Shown here: positions 46,835 through 58,951 of the stretch, in pieces
Layout of the letters: every line of letters starts with the position of its first letter
How positions within the stretch are numbered: position 1 is the stretch's first letter
Origin: Fibrobacter succinogenes
Lineage (GTDB): Bacteria; Fibrobacterota; Fibrobacteria; Fibrobacterales; Fibrobacteraceae
Reading direction: 5' to 3'
Length of the DNA: 64,000 bases
NCBI GenBank assembly: GCA_902756345.1
Contig: CACVQR010000006.1
Span: forward strand, 124,001-188,000
Program-made: the position numbers and the translations under genes
Notes under the pieces: generated by a model
Database searches by the model: none
The model's input: the letters and a program-made list of their open reading frames with translations, nothing else
What the model was told of the DNA's origin: nothing

Positions 46835-46867
46835 ATTTTTGTTCGCACTTTAGTGGAAGAGGAAGAA

Positions 46868-48193
46868 ATGCAAGCCGAATGGGAAAGATGTTTGAACTAC
46901 CTCCGTGGGATGCTTTCGGACACGGTTTATAAGACATATTTTGCGCAGACCAAGCTCTCAAGCCTTACCACCGGTCATGCAGTCGTTACCGTTCCGCCCG
47001 GACTGGATACCGCCGTCTATTCTGCTTACAAGGAACTCATCCGCCTCGCCTGGCGCGAAGTCACGCACGACGAATCTGCAATTGAATTTGAATTCCAGCA
47101 ACAAGAAGCTGTAGCCCAGGCTGCACCTGCAGGCAACAACAGCTTCCGCGATTTCTTGAAGCCGAGCATTCCGCTTTCGGGTTCTTTCCGCTTCGAAAAT
47201 TTTGTGCCGGGCGACAAGGCTCAGCTTGCGTTCAACGCAGCACTCGCCGTTGCTAGGAACCCCGACGGTACGCAGTACAACCCGCTCTTTATTTACGGTT
47301 CTTCGGGCCTTGGCAAGACTCACCTTTTGCAAGCTATCGGTAATTACATTCTCGAAGATGACCCGACTAAGCGCGTGTGCTACCTGACCTCCGAAGATTT
47401 TTCGCAGCAGTACATGAAGTGCCTGCGCGAACAGCGCATTACCGAAATGTCCGACTTCTACAGAAACGAAGTCGATATCTTGCTGATTGACGATATTCAG
47501 AACTGGACCGGCAAGTACGAAACCCAGAACGAATTCTTCTTGATCTTTAACGCTTTGCACCAGGCCGGCAAGCAGATTGTGCTGACCTCTGATGCACCGG
47601 CAGCCGAAGTCAAGAACTTGTCTGACCGCTTGGTCAGCCGTTTCGCTTGGGGCCTCACGGTCGACATCCAGCCGCCTGACGTAGAAACCCGCGAAGCCAT
47701 TTTACACAAGAAGGCCGAAGAACGCCACCTGGAAATCAGCGACGACGTTCTGCACTACCTTGCCGAAAACATCGCAAGCAACGTGCGCTGCCTCGAAAGC
47801 GCTATCATCAAGCTCACCTTGCAGTCGAGCCTGATGCACCACGACATCGACATGAGCATCGCCCAGAAGGTGGTCGCCGAAATCGCTCCGACGCTTCGCC
47901 GCCGCGTAAGCCTCGACGCCGTTCTCCACACCGTTTCGAAGCACTACGAAGTGCCCGAAGCCAAGCTCACCGAATCGGGTCGTGGCACCAAGGAAATTTC
48001 GAAGGCCCGCCAGGTCGCCATGTACCTGATGCGCGAATGCTCGCCCATCAGTTTGCAGTCCATCGGTTCGCGCTTTGGCGGCAAGGACCACTCCACCGTG
48101 GTTCACGCCATCAAGAGCATCAAGAAAGAAATGGAAACCGACCCGAGCTTTGCACGACTCATCGAAAGCTTGAAGAACTCGATTCACGACTAG
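46868..48193 (+). CDS. dnaA: Chromosomal replication initiator protein DnaA
   Basis: The 441-residue AAA+ protein binds DnaA boxes and opens the origin. Domain I is MQAEWERCLNYLRGMLSDTVYKTYFAQTKL. The AAA+ core begins FRFENFVPGDKAQLAFNAAL, with Walker A GSSGLGKTHLLQAIGN, Walker B VDILLIDDIQNW and sensor LTSDAPAAEVKNLSDRLVSRF. Domain IV ends with the signature SRFGGKDHSTVVHAIKSI. Domain II is short, giving a compact protein. A GTG at 46853 is in frame, but GGAAGAGGAAG directly before the ATG at 46868 fits as ribosome-binding site. The usual dnaN/recF neighbours are absent. Confidence 0.96.
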   Translation: MQAEWERCLNYLRGMLSDTVYKTYFAQTKLSSLTTGHAVVTVPPGLDTAVYSAYKELIRLAWREVTHDESAIEFEFQQQEAVAQAAPAGNNSFRDFLKPSIPLSGSFRFENFVPGDKAQLAFNAALAVARNPDGTQYNPLFIYGSSGLGKTHLLQAIGNYILEDDPTKRVCYLTSEDFSQQYMKCLREQRITEMSDFYRNEVDILLIDDIQNWTGKYETQNEFFLIFNALHQAGKQIVLTSDAPAAEVKNLSDRLVSRFAWGLTVDIQPPDVETREAILHKKAEERHLEISDDVLHYLAENIASNVRCLESAIIKLTLQSSLMHHDIDMSIAQKVVAEIAPTLRRRVSLDAVLHTVSKHYEVPEAKLTESGRGTKEISKARQVAMYLMRECSPISLQSIGSRFGGKDHSTVVHAIKSIKKEMETDPSFARLIESLKNSIHD

Positions 48194-50296: not shown

Positions 50297-50327
50297 TTGC
50301 CCTAATTTACAGATTTTGGTATCTTTA
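50297..50327 (+). promoter_or_regulatory. TTG ... TATCTTTA promoter of the amidoligase operon
   Basis: TTGC at 50297 and TATCTTTA at 50320-50327 are 23 nt apart, the spacing also seen at three other promoters here. Unlike the leaderless genes, about 115 nt of structured leader follow before the first ATG. Confidence 0.6.
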
Positions 50328-50380
50328 CAACACGCCTTCGACGACCCGAAAAAACCTTCCGACAGCCGCCAGACGAGAAC

Positions 50381-50417
50381 GGGTACGGCCAAACGGATTA
50401 AATCCGCGAACCGTCCC
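50381..50417 (+). promoter_or_regulatory. Nested hairpin in the leader of the amidoligase operon
   Basis: GGGTACGG (50381-50388) pairs with CCGTCCC (50411-50417) with one bulged T. Inside, CGGAT-TAA-ATCCG (50394-50406) is a perfect hairpin. The structure ends 28 nt before the first start codon. It may control translation, but matches no riboswitch I know. Confidence 0.45.
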
Positions 50418-50445
50418 GACCTACAAGGCAAAAATAGGCAAAACG

Positions 50446-51144
50446 ATGGACATCAAGATTCTACAGCAGCCCGACGACGTTACCTGCGGGCCGACTAGCC
50501 TACAGGCGGTCTATAACCACCTTGGCTACAAGATTTCTCTAAAGCAACTGATTTCTGAAATTGAGTTCTTGGAAGACGGCGGGACGCTGGGCGTTTTCCT
50601 CGGAATCGACGCGCTCAAACGTGGATTCAAGGTGACTATTCATTCGTATAACCTGACGCTTTTGGACCCCACCTGGAGCGAGCTTTCCATGCCGGAACTG
50701 AAGGCTAAGCTTGAACTTTTGCACAAGGCGAAGCACGCCCCCAAGCTCCGCAAGGCTATTGAGGCCTACATCCGCTTTATCGACTTGGGCGGAACTGTGG
50801 CATTTTCCGACCTGCGTGCAGCCATGTTCGAAAAATATTTCAAGAAGGGCGTGCCTGTTCTTTGCGGACTTTCGGCCACCTACTTGTACCGCAGCATGCG
50901 CGAATTCACCGGAGCTGATGACAAGTCCGTCTTTGACGACATCCACGGCGAACCCATGGGTCACTTCGTCGTGGTGTACGGTATAGACGACAAGAATCAA
51001 TTCATGGTGGCCGACCCCGACGGCACCAACCCCCTCCACAAGACCCCTTACTACAAGGTGGACAAGTTCCGACTACTCCACAGCATCTTGCTCGGCGTCA
51101 TGACGTACGACGGCAACGTGCTAGTCATCGAGAATAAGAAATAG
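50446..51144 (+). CDS. Peptidase C39-like cysteine peptidase
   Basis: The 232-residue protein has the C39-type papain-like triad: Gln and Cys in LQQPDDVTCGPTSLQAVYNHLGY (Cys14), His in EPMGHFVVVYGID and Asp in FMVADPDG. C39 domains classically cut double-glycine leader peptides during bacteriocin export; stand-alone cytoplasmic forms exist with other substrates. It has no signal peptide or transporter domain. A middle insertion (about residues 75-125: MPELKAKLELLHKAKHAP) is helical. The next gene begins 4 nt after its stop, which ties it to the RLAN/ATP-grasp ligase. I infer that it trims or transfers the ligase product. Confidence 0.82.
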   Translation: MDIKILQQPDDVTCGPTSLQAVYNHLGYKISLKQLISEIEFLEDGGTLGVFLGIDALKRGFKVTIHSYNLTLLDPTWSELSMPELKAKLELLHKAKHAPKLRKAIEAYIRFIDLGGTVAFSDLRAAMFEKYFKKGVPVLCGLSATYLYRSMREFTGADDKSVFDDIHGEPMGHFVVVYGIDDKNQFMVADPDGTNPLHKTPYYKVDKFRLLHSILLGVMTYDGNVLVIENKK

Positions 51145-51148
51145 GATC

Positions 51149-52654
51149 ATGAAAAAATTAATCGTTGTAAACAATCCCAAGCACTGGAAGTTACACGTTC
51201 CGGGCATCGATATCATTTCGGCACAGGACTACCTGATTTCGAGCAAATACACCAACGAACGCAACCTGCGTGTATTCAACCTCTGCCGCGATTACAACTA
51301 CCAAAGCAAAGGCTACTACGTATCGCTGTTGGCCGAGGCCCGCGGGCACAAGGTAATTCCGGGCGTCAAGAACATGCGCGACTTCAAGGCCCCGGCGGTC
51401 ATCAAGCACATTTCCGATGAAATCGACAACTTGATTCAAAAGAGCCTGCACAAACTGACCGGCACGGAATTCGTGCTTTCGATTTACTTCGGTCAAAACG
51501 TGAGCCCGCAATACCTGGAGCTTTCGCAGGAACTTTACCGCCTGTTCCAGGCACCGCTGCTGCGTGCGAAATTCGTGTTCAAGCAGAAGTGGTTTATCCA
51601 GAGTATTCGCCCAATTTGCGTGGATGAAATTCCCGAATCGCACATGGAATTCGTCGATAAATTTGCGCAGGAATACTTCGAAAAAACGCGCTACGCCACC
51701 AGTAAAGAAGAAGATTACCTGTACGACTTAGGCATTCTCACGAACCCCGATGAAGTCGAGCCGCCGAGCAACGCGCAGGCTATCCAGAACTTTATCAAGG
51801 CTGCCGAAGAAACGGGATTCCGCGTGGAAATGATTACCAAGAAGGATTACCCGCGCGTAGGCGAATTCGACGCCATATTCATCCGCGAAACCACGAACGT
51901 GAACCATTACACTTACAGTTTCGCCCGCCGAGCCCAGTCGCAAGGCATCGCCGTCATTGACGACCCCGACAGCATTCTGCGCTGCTCCAACAAGGTGTAC
52001 CTGCAAGAACTGATGCAGGCGGCCAAGATTCATTCGCCCAAAACGATTATCGCCCATGCAGAAAACCGCCACACGCTCGCCAAGGAAATCGGATTTCCGA
52101 TGGTGATCAAGTCGCCGGATTCGAGTTTCTCGATGGGTGTCAAGAAGGCGACCAACAAAGAAGAACTCGAACAGATTCTTGACGAGATGTTCCAGCATAG
52201 CGACCTGCTTATTGCCCAGGAATTTACACCGACGGAATTCGACTGGCGCGTGGGCGTGCTCGACGGCAAACCGCTTTACGCCTGCAAATACCACATGGCC
52301 AAGGGCCACTGGCAGATTTACAACTGGGAAAGCAACGACAAGCAAAGCGAAGAATTTTCGGGTAAGTGCGAAAGCATCCCTATCGAAATGGTTCCGCATG
52401 GAATCGTGAAAACCGCACTCAAGATTTGCAGCCTGATCGGCAACGGGCTTTACGGTGTGGATTTGAAGGAATGGCATGGCCACCCGATTGTAATCGAAGT
52501 GAACGACAACCCAAGTATCGACGCGGGCATCGAAGATGGCGTGGGCAAAAGCAAAGTTTACCTCGCCATCATGAGATCGCTGCGCCACCGCATCGAGGAA
52601 CGCATGAACGCCGCGCAACATAAACTGCAGCAACATGAGAGGGAATGGTTCTAG
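51149..52654 (+). CDS. RimK-like ATP-grasp ligase with RLAN N-terminal domain
   Basis: The 501-residue protein joins an RLAN-type N-terminal domain (about 1-150: MKKLIVVNNPKHW, DIISAQDYLISSKY, NLCRDYNYQSKGYYVSLLAEARGHKV) to an ATP-grasp domain (about 195-480). The ATP-grasp part shows VIDDPDSILRCSNKVYLQELM, FPMVIKSPDSSFSMGVKKA, LIAQEFTPTEFDWRVGVLDG and the Mg-binding end LYGVDLKEWHGHPIVIEVNDNPSIDAG. ATP-grasp ligases form amide bonds through an acyl phosphate; RimK adds glutamates to ribosomal protein S6. The RLAN subgroup has been predicted, from gene context, to make unknown peptides. It follows the C39-like gene by 4 nt and precedes a GCS2-like gene. Confidence 0.88.
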   Translation: MKKLIVVNNPKHWKLHVPGIDIISAQDYLISSKYTNERNLRVFNLCRDYNYQSKGYYVSLLAEARGHKVIPGVKNMRDFKAPAVIKHISDEIDNLIQKSLHKLTGTEFVLSIYFGQNVSPQYLELSQELYRLFQAPLLRAKFVFKQKWFIQSIRPICVDEIPESHMEFVDKFAQEYFEKTRYATSKEEDYLYDLGILTNPDEVEPPSNAQAIQNFIKAAEETGFRVEMITKKDYPRVGEFDAIFIRETTNVNHYTYSFARRAQSQGIAVIDDPDSILRCSNKVYLQELMQAAKIHSPKTIIAHAENRHTLAKEIGFPMVIKSPDSSFSMGVKKATNKEELEQILDEMFQHSDLLIAQEFTPTEFDWRVGVLDGKPLYACKYHMAKGHWQIYNWESNDKQSEEFSGKCESIPIEMVPHGIVKTALKICSLIGNGLYGVDLKEWHGHPIVIEVNDNPSIDAGIEDGVGKSKVYLAIMRSLRHRIEERMNAAQHKLQQHEREWF

Positions 52655-52695
52655 AGGTATGAGGTCGGCACTTCGTACCTTTGAGGTATGAGTAC

Positions 52696-52759
52696 GCACC
52701 TGCGGTGCTTTGAATCTCAATAATCGCGCCATTGGCGCCAAATTAAAAGCACAAAGTGC
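52696..52759 (+). repeat. Series of short hairpins with 3-nt loops between the two ligase genes
   Basis: GCACC-TGC-GGTGC (52696-52708), GCGCC-ATT-GGCGC (52726-52738) and GCAC-AAA-GTGC (52749-52759) lie in the 166-bp gap 52655-52820. The outer parts carry GAGGTATGAG twice and GAGGTCG ... CGACCTC. It may be a dispersed repeat or a processing region that splits the operon. Confidence 0.5.
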
Positions 52760-52820
52760 AACGCACGACCTCAGAGCGAGTTTACGAGCGAGCTCATAGC
52801 TCATTACTTAGAGGTTTTTT

Positions 52821-54044
52821 ATGAATTACAAACTCTGGCAACGCTACGGCATCGAGATGGAATACATGATCGTGGATCGTGATTCCTTGAACGTTCTCCC
52901 CCGCGCCGATGTTCCGCTTGGAAAAGACAAAAACGGCGAGCAGCTTTCGGACGTAGAACACGGACCGATTGGACTTTCCAACGAACTGGTGAGCCATGTG
53001 CTGGAATTCAAGTGCGCACAGCCTGTCGATAGCCTGAAACACTTGGGCAAGACATTCCACCACGAAATTCTGAAAGCGAACGAATCACTCAAAAGCATTA
53101 ACGCCATGCTGCTCCCCACGGCGGCCCACCCCTTTATGGACCCTGCCGAGATGAAACTCTGGCCCTACGACTGCCTGGACATTTACGAGACTTACGACCG
53201 CATCTTTAACTGCAAGGGGCACGGCTGGGCGAACCTGCAATCCACCCACATCAACCTCTCCTTCAATGGCGACGAAGAATTCGGAAAGTTGCACGCAGCC
53301 ATTCGTGCGCTGTTGCCGCTGATTCCCGCCATCGCTGCCTCTAGCCCGTTCTTGGACAGCAAATACTGCGGATTCCTGGATGGCCGAATCGAAACATACC
53401 GCCACAACCAGGAAAAAATCCCGAGCATCACGGGCAAGGTGATTCCCGAAGCGGTGTTTACTTACAAGGATTACGAGGAACAGATTTTCAACCGCGTGAA
53501 GGCAGATATTGCGCCTTACGATCCGGAACATTTGCTGAACCACTTCTTCTTGAATAGCCGCGGAGCAATCGCACGCTTTGACCGCGGCGCAATCGAGATT
53601 CGACTCGTTGACATTCAGGAATGCCCCGATGCCGACATTGCCATTGCTGAATGGGAAGTCGCCGTACTCAAGGGCCTTGCGGAAGGCGCTTTCGCAAGCG
53701 AAACTGAAATTCGCGCCCTCGATACCGACGCTCTCGCCAAGATTCTGCTTGCGACGACAAAATCTGCCGAAAAGACCGTTATTGCGGACCGCGATTTCTT
53801 GAATATTTGGAAGATTAATGCCAGCGAAATCACCGCCGGCGAACTCATCCAAAAAATCACGGACCGTGTCAAAGCCAAAATCAGCGCTCATTCGCAAGCC
53901 TTGCTTGCCGAAATGTTCAAGCGCGGCACGCTCGCAAGCGCCCTCGTGAAAGCCGTCGGTGCAGACCCCGACCGCGACGACTTTGTATACGAATACGGGA
54001 AATTGGCAAAATGCTTGGCCGAAAATAGACTCTACGGAATTTAA
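52821..54044 (+). CDS. GCS2-family carboxylate-amine ligase
   Basis: The 407-residue protein belongs to the glutamate-cysteine ligase type 2 group: RYGIEMEYMIVDRDSLNV, GLSNELVSHVLEFK, LLPTAAHPFMDP, GHGWANLQSTHINLSFNG, IAASSPFLDSKYCGFLDGRIETYRHNQ and ARFDRGAIEIRLVDIQECPDADI. This fold, related to glutamine synthetase, makes gamma-glutamyl or similar amides with ATP. True glutathione pathway partners (gshB) are absent, so a different amino acid or peptide is likely. GAGG precedes the ATG. It follows the ATP-grasp gene by 166 nt, and the phosphatase gene starts 19 nt later. Confidence 0.85.
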   Translation: MNYKLWQRYGIEMEYMIVDRDSLNVLPRADVPLGKDKNGEQLSDVEHGPIGLSNELVSHVLEFKCAQPVDSLKHLGKTFHHEILKANESLKSINAMLLPTAAHPFMDPAEMKLWPYDCLDIYETYDRIFNCKGHGWANLQSTHINLSFNGDEEFGKLHAAIRALLPLIPAIAASSPFLDSKYCGFLDGRIETYRHNQEKIPSITGKVIPEAVFTYKDYEEQIFNRVKADIAPYDPEHLLNHFFLNSRGAIARFDRGAIEIRLVDIQECPDADIAIAEWEVAVLKGLAEGAFASETEIRALDTDALAKILLATTKSAEKTVIADRDFLNIWKINASEITAGELIQKITDRVKAKISAHSQALLAEMFKRGTLASALVKAVGADPDRDDFVYEYGKLAKCLAENRLYGI

Positions 54045-54049
54045 AAGAA

Positions 54050-54057
54050 TATATTTA
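54050..54057 (+). promoter_or_regulatory. TATATTTA -7-like element of the phosphatase gene
   Basis: TATATTTA, then TTCCTA, then the ATG at 54064: a 6-nt gap. The octamer begins 5 nt after the GCS2 stop, so the phosphatase and the gene after it may have their own leaderless transcript. Confidence 0.5.
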
Positions 54058-54063
54058 TTCCTA

Positions 54064-55386
54064 ATGAGAAAAAATTGGCCGATTCTTGTAGGACTCCTGG
54101 TTTGCACGCAGGCTTTTTTATCCTGTAGCAATTCCGTTTCAACTTTTGTTGCAAATGAGACTGAAAAGCCTCAAACCACAACAGAAGAAATCGCAACAGT
54201 TCTGGAAGAACCCACTGAGCCAGACACAAGCGTCCAAGAAATCGCCATTTCCGACACAGCGTCTGACACGACGGTCACTGTAGACACGGTAAATACCGAT
54301 ACAACCACTCACGATGCAGCCTTAGAAGATTCCAACGAACTTCATTTTATACTTGAAGAAGACGGAATCACATCCGACAAAATATACCTAAACTACCCGG
54401 CGGATTCTTTCTTGACTCGGTTTGAAATTGGCGACATTGTAACAGTCGCAATCAACGGCTACGACACTCTTGAAATGCCGGTAGCGGAAAGCTCCAGCGA
54501 CGTGCCCATCGCAGGATTCCTTGTCGCCGCAATCAAGGGTTCCGACCAACTAGTCTTGACAGCCCATTACGCCCAGATGTCAGATGTCCTCGGAATAACC
54601 GCCGAAAACGCGCCTTTACAAGTTTCCATATCCATGAAAGAAAAAGGCGGCTACCTATTGGGCCTCGACATCATGCGAAACACCCAATACATGGACACCT
54701 ACTTAGAAGCTTACCCAGACCTTTCAATTGAAGAATTCGCAAACTTTAGAGAAGTTCACACCACAGGCATGGGGGAACATAAGCTTTACCGTTCTTCTAG
54801 TCCCATCTACCTTTACCTCGGCCGCAATTACTACGTCGATTCTCTGGCTCAAGCCGCAGGCGTAACCACCTTCATCAACCTAGCCGATTCGGAGAATGAA
54901 GCATACTCCAACAAGGGTTACGAAACCACCTATTATTCGACACAAAACATCATCTTTTTAGGAGTTCCCCCGGAATTCTTTTCAGAGATTTTCAAAGTAG
55001 GTCTCGTAATAGGGTTCCGTTACATGATTGAGCACGAAGGCCCGTATCTGGTGCACTGCACCTATGGCATGGACCGCACCGGTTTTATGATTGCCGTCTT
55101 GGAAGCCTTAATGGGCGCTACCACCGAAGAAATCCAAGATGATTACGCCAAAACTTTCAGCAACGACTTCACCGTAGTCAATGGCAAACAGGTTGCCTTG
55201 AACGAACAACAGATTGATTTTTTCAAGGCGGTCGTCCTCAGGAATCTGAAGGCCGTGTACCACGCCGAGGGAATCGACGTTCCCGACACCAAGCCGATTG
55301 ACTGGGCCGCAGCTACAGAAAAATACCTAGGGAAACTCGGAATGACCCCAGAGGAAGTTTCCTCTTTGAAGGACAGATTGAAATAA
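54064..55386 (+). CDS. Lipoprotein tyrosine/dual-specificity phosphatase
   Basis: The 440-residue protein has a lipoprotein signal (MRKNWPILVGLLVCTQAFLSC, lipobox AFLSC). A Thr/Glu/Asp-rich linker of about 70 residues (TTTEEIATVLEEPTEPDT) and a beta-rich domain (about 95-215: FEIGDIVTVAINGYDTLEMPV) follow. The phosphatase domain has FREVHTTGMGEHKLYRSSSP, TTFINLADSENE and the P-loop VHCTYGMDRTGFM, with CX5R intact. Its style fits the Tyr_phosphatase_3 group. It should act at the periplasmic or outer surface on phosphotyrosine, phosphosugars or inositol phosphates. An upstream in-frame ATG at 53959 lies inside the GCS2 gene; the ATG at 54064 fits promoter and signal. Its stop overlaps the next ATG. 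Confidence 0.82.
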   Translation: MRKNWPILVGLLVCTQAFLSCSNSVSTFVANETEKPQTTTEEIATVLEEPTEPDTSVQEIAISDTASDTTVTVDTVNTDTTTHDAALEDSNELHFILEEDGITSDKIYLNYPADSFLTRFEIGDIVTVAINGYDTLEMPVAESSSDVPIAGFLVAAIKGSDQLVLTAHYAQMSDVLGITAENAPLQVSISMKEKGGYLLGLDIMRNTQYMDTYLEAYPDLSIEEFANFREVHTTGMGEHKLYRSSSPIYLYLGRNYYVDSLAQAAGVTTFINLADSENEAYSNKGYETTYYSTQNIIFLGVPPEFFSEIFKVGLVIGFRYMIEHEGPYLVHCTYGMDRTGFMIAVLEALMGATTEEIQDDYAKTFSNDFTVVNGKQVALNEQQIDFFKAVVLRNLKAVYHAEGIDVPDTKPIDWAAATEKYLGKLGMTPEEVSSLKDRLK

Positions 55387-56087
55387 TGAAACTCATACTT
55401 ACATGCGAGCACGCGAGCAACAAATTACCCGCCGCCTTCAAGAAGGCCGTTCCTGCCGAAGTCCTAAAGACCCACCGTGCCTACGATATCGGGGCAGTTC
55501 AGGTTTTCCGCAAGTTGGTGAAATTCGCCAAGCCGGAATTCTATTGCGAAGGAAAGTATTCGCGCCTGTTTGTTGACCTGAACCGCACCATCACCAACAA
55601 GAGCGCTTTTAGCGAATACTACGATGCGTTCGAAGCCCGCAACAAATCCGCTGCCAAAAAAGCGAAAGCTCAAGCCACCGCCTACTGGCAGGAATACCGC
55701 ACCGCCATCGAAAAATTCGTGGCAAGTTCGCTGCCAGCACTGAGCAACGTCGAAGTGAGTTCGCCGAAGCGAACCGCCTCTAAAACGCGCGCAGCAAAAT
55801 CCGAGCCAGAAATCGTCCACCTCGGCATCCACAGCTTTACGCCCGTGCTAAACGGTAAAGTCCGCAACGCCGATATCGGAATTCTCTACGACCCCACCCG
55901 CCCGCAAGAGCGCGCCTACGCGAACGTCATCAAGGCAGAAATCAAGCGGCTTTACCCCGCCATGAAAGTCCGTTTCAACTACCCGTACAAAGGAACATCC
56001 GACGGACTCACCACCACGCTCCGCAAAAAGTTCGGCCCGCAGTACGTGGGAATCGAGATTGAGATAAATCAGAAGTTTTTCCTATAG
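55386..56087 (+). CDS. N-formylglutamate amidohydrolase family protein
   Basis: The 233-residue protein follows the FGase fold: LILTCEHASNKLPAAF with the metal-binding Glu-His, HRAYDIGAVQVFRKL, YSRLFVDLNRTI, HLGIHSFTPVLNGK and YPYKGTSDGLTTTLRKKF ... YVGIEIEINQKF. Family enzymes hydrolyse N-acyl amides (N-formylglutamate in histidine breakdown); they are also found in operons with ATP-grasp and GCS2 ligases. No histidine-degradation genes lie nearby. A variable loop (SSLPALSNVEVSSPKRTASK) is inserted near residue 120. Its ATG overlaps the phosphatase TAA (TAATG), so translation is coupled. A terminator follows. Confidence 0.85.
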   Translation: MKLILTCEHASNKLPAAFKKAVPAEVLKTHRAYDIGAVQVFRKLVKFAKPEFYCEGKYSRLFVDLNRTITNKSAFSEYYDAFEARNKSAAKKAKAQATAYWQEYRTAIEKFVASSLPALSNVEVSSPKRTASKTRAAKSEPEIVHLGIHSFTPVLNGKVRNADIGILYDPTRPQERAYANVIKAEIKRLYPAMKVRFNYPYKGTSDGLTTTLRKKFGPQYVGIEIEINQKFFL

Positions 56088-56088
56088 G

Positions 56089-56123
56089 AAAAGCCTCGAG
56101 ACTTACCCGAGGCAATTTTCTTT
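56089..56123 (+). terminator. Intrinsic terminator closing the amidoligase gene set
   Basis: GCCTCG, 9-nt loop, CGAGGC (56093-56113), with AAAA before and TTTTCTTTT after. Confidence 0.8.
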
Positions 56124-58165: not shown

Positions 58166-58349
58166 TTATCAAATTTCCGTTAAGCCGGACAAGCCGCGGT
58201 CTCCGCCACCGCAAGGTCAATCCTAATCCTTTATGCAGCGAATATTTGTGGACACAACCACACCCCTAAATATAACCTAAACCCCGCCCCAAAACAACCA
58301 CCCCGTGACCAAACACACTGAAAACGCCCCACACAGCAATGCCCATTGC

Positions 58350-58380
58350 TTGCTTTTCTGCAAAGAAAAGTGTATATTTG
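58350..58380 (+). promoter_or_regulatory. TTGC ... TATATTTG promoter of the toxin-antitoxin pair
   Basis: TTGC at 58350-58353 and an exact TATATTTG at 58373-58380 are 23 nt apart. The antitoxin ATG follows 14 nt later, with TGGAG between. Confidence 0.7.
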
Positions 58381-58394
58381 TCAATGGAGTTATT

Positions 58395-58631
58395 ATGTCA
58401 TACGACGTCCTAGAAAAAGAAATTCGCCAGTTGCCGGAATCCTATCTCGAGGATGTTTCGAAGTATATCCAGTTTCTGCTTTACCAATATGAGCAGGAAC
58501 GCATGTCCGCACTCGAAGAGTCGGACGAGGTATTCAATGCTAAGATGCAAAAGGGACTAGATGACGTGCGAAACGGTCGCCTCACGCCCATAGACGACGC
58601 TTTCGCAGAACTCAAGCAGCGCTTCGCATAA
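58395..58631 (+). CDS. Antitoxin of a type II pair
   Basis: The 78-residue protein begins MSYDVLEKEIRQLPESYLEDVSKYIQFLLYQ, a pattern shared by many small antitoxins (DUF2281/RelB-like) that dimerise and bind the operon promoter. The C-terminal half (EVFNAKMQKGLDDVRNGRLTPIDDAFAELKQRFA) is the likely toxin-binding helix. The ATG at 58395 is chosen over an upstream in-frame ATG at 58305, which lies before the promoter. Its TAA overlaps the toxin ATG (ATAATGG). Confidence 0.82.
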   Translation: MSYDVLEKEIRQLPESYLEDVSKYIQFLLYQYEQERMSALEESDEVFNAKMQKGLDDVRNGRLTPIDDAFAELKQRFA

Positions 58632-58951
58632 TGGAATACTCCGTTTTTCTCACAGAACAGGCAAAATCCGATTTAGCCGAAATATACTCCTATATTTCGG
58701 TTGAACTGAAATCGAAAAAATCCGCTGAAAATGTGATAGACGCACTTCATCAGGCTATGAAGGGCTTATCGCTTATGCCTAGCCGTTATCATCAGTTTCC
58801 AAACGAACCTTGGCTTTCAGAAGGGGTGCGGTATTTTACAATTCGCAACTATTCAATCTTTTATACTGTAGATGAAAACAATTTGTGCGTTTCTGTCGTG
58901 CATGTAATCTACGGCAAACGAAATCTGCCACAGGTTCTGTCAAACCGCTAA
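58631..58951 (+). CDS. RelE/ParE-family toxin
   Basis: The 106-residue protein reads YSVFLTEQAKSDLAEIYSYISVELKSKKSAENVIDAL, then YHQFPNEPWLSEGVRYFTIRNYSIFYTVDE and VSVVHVIYGKRNLPQVL. This is the ParE/RelE fold; the RNYSIFYTV strand and final VIYGKRN are characteristic. ParE members inhibit gyrase and RelE members cleave mRNA; the sequence suggests ParE-like. Overlap with the antitoxin by one base is the normal arrangement for balanced expression. Confidence 0.87.
   Translation: MEYSVFLTEQAKSDLAEIYSYISVELKSKKSAENVIDALHQAMKGLSLMPSRYHQFPNEPWLSEGVRYFTIRNYSIFYTVDENNLCVSVVHVIYGKRNLPQVLSNR

Follow-up and report, generated by a model that had tools for sequence, protein, structure and literature searches.

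A conserved four-gene set of two amide ligases and two hydrolases in Fibrobacter succinogenes, a possible module for making and breaking a small peptide or amide

Operons that join an RLAN-family ligase to GNAT/papain-like and GCS2 neighbours are said to have been predicted as peptide-making by Iyer et al. in 2009. Among characterised systems, RimK and RimB form a ligase-protease pair in which RimB reverses RimK (PMC12239564), and the operon for N-acetylglutaminylglutamine amide (NAGGN) serves a capped dipeptide (PMC8070244). Linked ATP-grasp, COOH-NH2 ligase and GNAT enzymes perform successive ligations or capping (PMC4431377). Here, we analyzed five open reading frames (ORFs) read on the + strand between 50446 and 56087 of a 64,000-nucleotide stretch (the window) from contig 6 of a Fibrobacter succinogenes genome (CACVQR010000006.1, positions 124,001 to 188,000; G000 in our numbering of genomes, in which loci carry the prefix L). 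We found that the real unit is four genes, encoding a C39-like peptidase, an RLAN/RimK-type ATP-grasp ligase, a GCS2 ligase and an enzyme resembling N-formylglutamate amidohydrolase (FGase). With moderate confidence, we propose that these genes form a cytoplasmic module that makes and breaks a small non-ribosomal peptide or amide.

The window carries an RLAN-RimK-like ATP-grasp fusion, a linked papain-like/C39 peptidase and a GCS2 partner. The predicted RLAN amidoligase operons likewise have an RLAN-ATP-grasp ligase, a papain-like/C39 peptidase and a GNAT or GCS2 partner, but here C39 is a free protein, GCS2 stands in place of GNAT, and an FGase is added. Because such operons have reportedly been predicted as peptide-makers, we assign the set to that predicted, uncharacterised kind. 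What our analysis adds is a defined four-gene core, the removal of a phosphatase gene from it, its split into two halves, and the alternation of GCS2 with GNAT. The literature that was searched reported no product and no characterisation of RLAN or GCS2 with ATP-grasp sets.

The pairing of a RimK-type ligase with an opposing hydrolase is shared with RimK-RimB (S6 glutamylation and its reversal), but here the ligase has an RLAN domain and is joined by a second ligase, the hydrolases are C39 and FGase and not a retropepsin, and no ribosomal target was seen. The NAGGN operon (asnO-ngg-peptidase) is also a small operon joining a non-ribosomal dipeptide ligase, acylation and a peptidase, whereas our set has other ligase partners and no asparagine-synthase-type amidation gene. 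The GCS2 protein shares its fold and catalytic residue pattern with YbdK and glutamate-cysteine ligase, but it is 12-15% identical to them by structural alignment and lies below all NCBIfam cut-offs. Similarly, the FGase has the family membership and the CEH and H-x3-H motifs of Atu2144 (2odf) and HutG-type FGases, but it is not HutG by NCBIfam and is embedded in a ligase operon.

Orthology was judged by the cut-offs of curated NCBIfam models. The GCS2 and FGase proteins score below the curated models or have no match to them, and neither is an orthologue from the glutathione or histidine pathways, in agreement with an earlier sequence-only reading of the locus. We rejected GCS2 as gshA (TIGR02048, 27.1 versus a cut-off of 249; YbdK subfamily, 38.9 versus 176), the ATP-grasp half as gshB (TIGR01380, 31.9 versus 299), the FGase as HutG (no NCBIfam match at E 0.01), and the RLAN ligase as RimK proper, the S6 glutamate ligase (TIGR00768, 78.7 versus 143.4; RimK equivalog, 29 versus 331). 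The NAGGN operon (GNAT-ATP-grasp Ngg plus AsnO) was rejected because none of the five proteins has a GNAT or asparagine-synthase domain.

Judging by their residues, all four core enzymes look catalytically intact. The C39/papain-like cysteine peptidase (50446 to 51144, 232 amino acids; Pfam Peptidase_C39_2, 7.6e-11), in which no signal peptide was seen, has the catalytic residues C14, H173 and D190 and an oxyanion-hole candidate, Q8; all four are invariant in a 17-sequence alignment, and D190 is nearly invariant in a wider set. The second gene (51149 to 52654, 501 amino acids; Pfam RLAN, 6.6e-48, which passes its cut-off, and RimK, 9.2e-12) encodes an RLAN domain (residues ~25-170) fused to a RimK/LysX-type ATP-grasp ligase (residues ~190-485). 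The predicted model of its ATP-grasp half (residues 190-485) best matches LysX (3vpd; Z score 25.9, root mean square deviation 2.3, 267 residues aligned) and matches RimK (7qys) with a Z score of 24.6; overall, LysX/ArgX structures score about 25-26 and RimK about 24-25. The residues D438, E450 and N452 are conserved, with a spacing that matches the RimK metal site. The GCS2-type carboxylate-amine ligase (52821 to 54044, 407 amino acids; Pfam GCS2, 1.1e-17) conserves E12/E14, E55/E62, H143 and E259-x-R261, a pattern in keeping with the site where gamma-glutamylcysteine synthetase holds metal and substrate. Its predicted model (pLDDT, the predicted local distance difference test, of 90.3) is closest in fold to a YbdK-type protein (1tt4; Z score 37.6, root mean square deviation 2.8, 346 residues aligned), followed by plant glutamate-cysteine ligase (Z score 33.0) and PafA/Dop (about 20). 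The FGase-family metallo-amidohydrolase (55386 to 56087, 233 amino acids; Pfam FGase, 9.1e-21) has C7-E8-H9, H145 and H149 invariant among the relatives aligned, and its closest solved relative is Atu2144 (2odf, 3.4e-32). The catalytic motifs quoted in the sequence-only reading were located in all five proteins, and even distant relatives keep the catalytic residues with little or no variation.

Relatives of the RLAN ligase were gathered as 79 loci first, with more added from whole genomes, and gene orders were counted in loci of at least 5 kb. The order C39-RLAN-GCS2-(FGase) was found in Fibrobacterota, Bacteroidota, Desulfobacterota and one spirochaete, and a Legionella plasmid carries RLAN-GCS2-FGase with C39 not in view. 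RLAN adjoins GCS2 in 124 loci, many of which are close Fibrobacter relatives: 62 have C39-RLAN-GCS2-FGase, 23 have C39-RLAN-GCS2, 11 have RLAN-GCS2-FGase, and 28 have RLAN-GCS2. The C39 gene adjoins RLAN in most of the multi-phylum loci, and the core intergenic gaps are usually 2 to 45 bases in Bacteroidota, Desulfobacterota and the spirochaete. One Fibrobacterota genus (genomes G154-G159; loci L091-L095 and L109) has RLAN and GCS2, and three of its loci show C39; nowhere in its six genomes was such an FGase found.

To avoid circularity, we searched for GCS2 alone in 297 Desulfobacterota and 395 Bacteroidota genomes and found it in 11 and 30 of them, respectively. RLAN lies immediately upstream in all 30 of the GCS2-found neighbourhoods that were fetched; C39 was found in 27 of the 30 and FGase in 19. 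This GCS2 is a distinct subfamily, located beside RLAN in every neighbourhood tested. The four core proteins also diverge in step (r of 0.52 to 0.75). The sequence-only reading had looked to a neighbourhood conserved beyond this strain, and one was found across several phyla; the four-gene set is ancient and widely shared among bacteria.

Within the genus Fibrobacter, 40 high-quality genomes were examined, of which 40 have GCS2, 39 have C39 and 39 have FGase. For RLAN, the listing of genomes without it contains none from this genus with completeness of 90% or more and contamination of 5% or less. In at least 16 Fibrobacter genomes (the 16 tabulated), the RLAN-GCS2 and C39-FGase pairs are separate while all four genes are kept; the pairs lie 25-125 kb apart or on different contigs. 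In three genomes (G072, G080 and G119), C39 and FGase are also apart from each other, and one genome (G088, 99% complete) retains just the two ligases. The core genes are retained together in genomes without staying side by side, and their separation is mostly along the ligase/hydrolase line. Mainly because the genes are co-retained and yet separate mostly along this line, we suggest that the set comprises separate synthesis ("make") and breakdown ("break") halves of one pathway.

The partner of RLAN varies among loci. Eight of the 10 RLAN loci without GCS2 have a GNAT, whereas a GNAT is adjacent in none of the 124 RLAN-GCS2 loci. The GNAT of one of these eight (L104, Fibrobacteraceae) is two genes away and convergent, which makes it weak evidence of partnership; without this case, the comparison is 7 of 10 versus 0 of 124 (Fisher test, P = 9e-10), a P value that overstates independence because the loci are related. 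Three GCS2 loci (L096, L155 and L157) have a GNAT several kb off, which was not counted as adjacent. Bacteroidales RLAN proteins bear an N-terminal GNAT, some members of the RLAN family are GNAT-ATP-grasp fusions (L073, L077, L078 and L079), an Aeromonas RLAN locus has a divergent GNAT, and in Azospirillum and Tistrella a GNAT-C39 fusion lies just before RLAN. The Azospirillum fusion (L113, 5763-6989) overlaps RLAN; its GNAT scores 87.4 versus a RimI cut-off of 86.4 and weakly matches the NAGGN synthetase model. No GCS2 was found anywhere in the three Bacteroidales and two Fibrobacteraceae genomes tested that lack it near RLAN, and this type of FGase is also absent from the same genomes. At least three switches between the GNAT and GCS2 labels occur on the RLAN tree, one of them resting on the weak L104 case. 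Because GCS2-less RLAN loci mostly carry a GNAT, GCS2 and GNAT seem to substitute for one another as "capping" partners of RLAN.

The best reading of the product is a small capped, probably glutamate-containing peptide that is synthesised and turned over. The GCS2 ligase would form the cap by activating a carboxylate and joining it to an amine; the chemistry of its family makes the gamma-carboxyl of glutamate the likeliest carboxylate. On the opposite side, the RLAN/RimK-type ligase would lengthen the molecule by linking an amino acid to a carboxylate, and its nearest folds suggest that this amino acid is most likely glutamate or a similar acidic one. The FGase-type enzyme may then hydrolyse the amide of the N-acyl cap, and the cysteine peptidase of the C39 type may cleave the peptide bond, so that the building blocks are returned. 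In other lineages, capping appears to fall to a GNAT acyltransferase instead of GCS2. We infer this assignment of enzymes to steps, the pairing of hydrolases with ligases, the identity of the substrates, and a product that is a free small molecule. The proposal in the sequence-only reading that the set makes and trims a small peptide remains the best one, with two unrelated ligases and two hydrolases conserved, but sensing at the surface was not supported. A search that was systematic for ORFs of at least 60 amino acids showed no conserved carrier, exporter or small ORF with the core genes. More tentatively, the set could represent a dedicated two-ligase/two-hydrolase circuit that builds and takes apart a widespread peptide metabolite, N-capped by a gamma-glutamyl or acyl group; GCS2 and GNAT would be alternative makers of the cap, and the circuit would have a core role in Fibrobacter, in which almost all species retain the four genes.

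Several observations weigh against the make-and-break proposal. Shared ancestry by itself would also make the proteins diverge in step. The "break" half is not strictly required, because FGase is absent from whole genomes in some Fibrobacterota and C39 is absent from two Flavobacteria genomes. Conservation with the set does not extend to any biosynthetic partner, transporter or regulator. Proteins are also among the substrates of RimK-type enzymes, and a fused GNAT is at the RimI cut-off, so the target may be a protein. The set is kept almost throughout Fibrobacter, a genus of gut bacteria that digest cellulose, and turns up sporadically in several other phyla. Its study may uncover a peptide metabolite, an osmolyte or a redox compound not seen before, or else a new kind of reversible protein modification; the split into a make pair and a break pair renders its function directly testable.

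Such a modification is the main rival explanation, although we consider it rather unlikely. RLAN would add amino acids to the C-terminus or a side chain of a protein, GCS2 or GNAT would modify an amino group, and C39 and FGase would erase the marks. The precedent of RimK/RimB (PMC12239564) favors this scheme, as do the closeness of the ATP-grasp half to RimK and LysX/ArgX, enzymes whose substrates are a ribosomal protein or the LysW carrier protein, and the Azospirillum GNAT-C39 fusion, whose GNAT passes the cut-off for RimI, a ribosomal protein acetyltransferase. However, a search of ORFs of at least 60-75 amino acids showed no conserved gene for a target or carrier next to the set in any phylum, and the GCS2 fold sides with the small-molecule branch of YbdK and glutamate-cysteine ligase over the protein-acting PafA/Dop.

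As a special case of the make-and-break module, the product could be an osmolyte-like capped dipeptide comparable to NAGGN, whose operon couples a dipeptide ligase with a peptidase (PMC8070244). The GNAT-ATP-grasp fusions within the RLAN family and the weak match of the Azospirillum GNAT to the NAGGN synthetase model are in line with this idea. Nevertheless, it seems quite improbable: nearly all rumen and gut Fibrobacter carry the set although they are not specialised for salt, and it has no shared asparagine-synthase partner.

A glutathione-like thiol pathway is highly doubtful. GCS2 would make gamma-glutamyl-cysteine, RLAN would act like GshB, and the papain-like enzyme would behave as a phytochelatin synthase or glutathionylspermidine amidase does. 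The GCS2 fold is that of plant glutamate-cysteine ligase and the ATP-grasp half has weak GshB-family matches, but the gshA and gshB equivalog scores are far below cut-off (27 versus 249 and 32 versus 299) and no conserved thiol-recycling partner was seen. Lastly, we give almost no credence to five independent housekeeping genes that are merely neighbours: dispersal in some Fibrobacter genomes would fit, but adjacency of GCS2 and RLAN in 30 of 30 neighbourhoods in other phyla, with short gaps, refutes it for the four core genes, and it may hold for the phosphatase.

The phosphatase gene (54064 to 55386, + strand; Pfam Y_phosphatase3, 8.4e-14) encodes a tyrosine-phosphatase-like lipoprotein with C332 in HCTYGMDRTG. 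Its start is most likely the ATG at 54064, and the predicted N-terminus, MRKNWPILVGLLVCTQAFLSC, is a plausible lipoprotein signal, as had been suggested. The stop codon overlaps the FGase start (TAATG), which couples the gene to FGase. In the first locus set, the phosphatase adjoins the core in seven Fibrobacter loci only (the window and six related loci); in two further loci (L121 and L122), it remains with FGase though the rest of the set has moved away. It was seen only in some Fibrobacter, directly upstream of FGase where both are on the stretch read. The phosphatase is a lineage-specific passenger, a local add-on to the four-gene core. Because it is such an insert, the set is not one of five genes by conservation: the five same-strand genes and their families stand as the sequence-only reading named them, supported by Pfam matches, and the core of four is conserved, but membership of the phosphatase in the system is not supported, and neither, as a consequence, is the notion of a product sensed at the surface.

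Between RLAN and GCS2 lies a 166-base interspersed inverted-repeat element (52655 to 52820, + strand), with further copies in its own genome at 76-84% identity, plus fragments. It folds strongly (z = -4.06), splits the operon, and has no part in its function. Folding of the proposed structured leader (50300-50445) is no stronger than that of shuffled sequences (z = -0.92), and the proposed promoter was not borne out either, as sigma-70-like sites are not above chance and none lies upstream of C39 on the + strand. A terminator-like feature was recovered: a hairpin followed by a T-rich run closes the operon after FGase (about 56093-56113, + strand), and it could also serve the convergent dap dehydrogenase gene.

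An Rfam scan of the locus gave no match, nor did a comparison of the set with an anti-phage defence library or of the RLAN ligase with phage records. Upstream, the translated ORF at 46853-48193 resembles DnaA by eye, and the operon may be near the replication origin in this strain. Downstream, at 58305-58951, two overlapping small ORFs resemble, by eye, a toxin-antitoxin pair, the second being similar to RelE/ParE.

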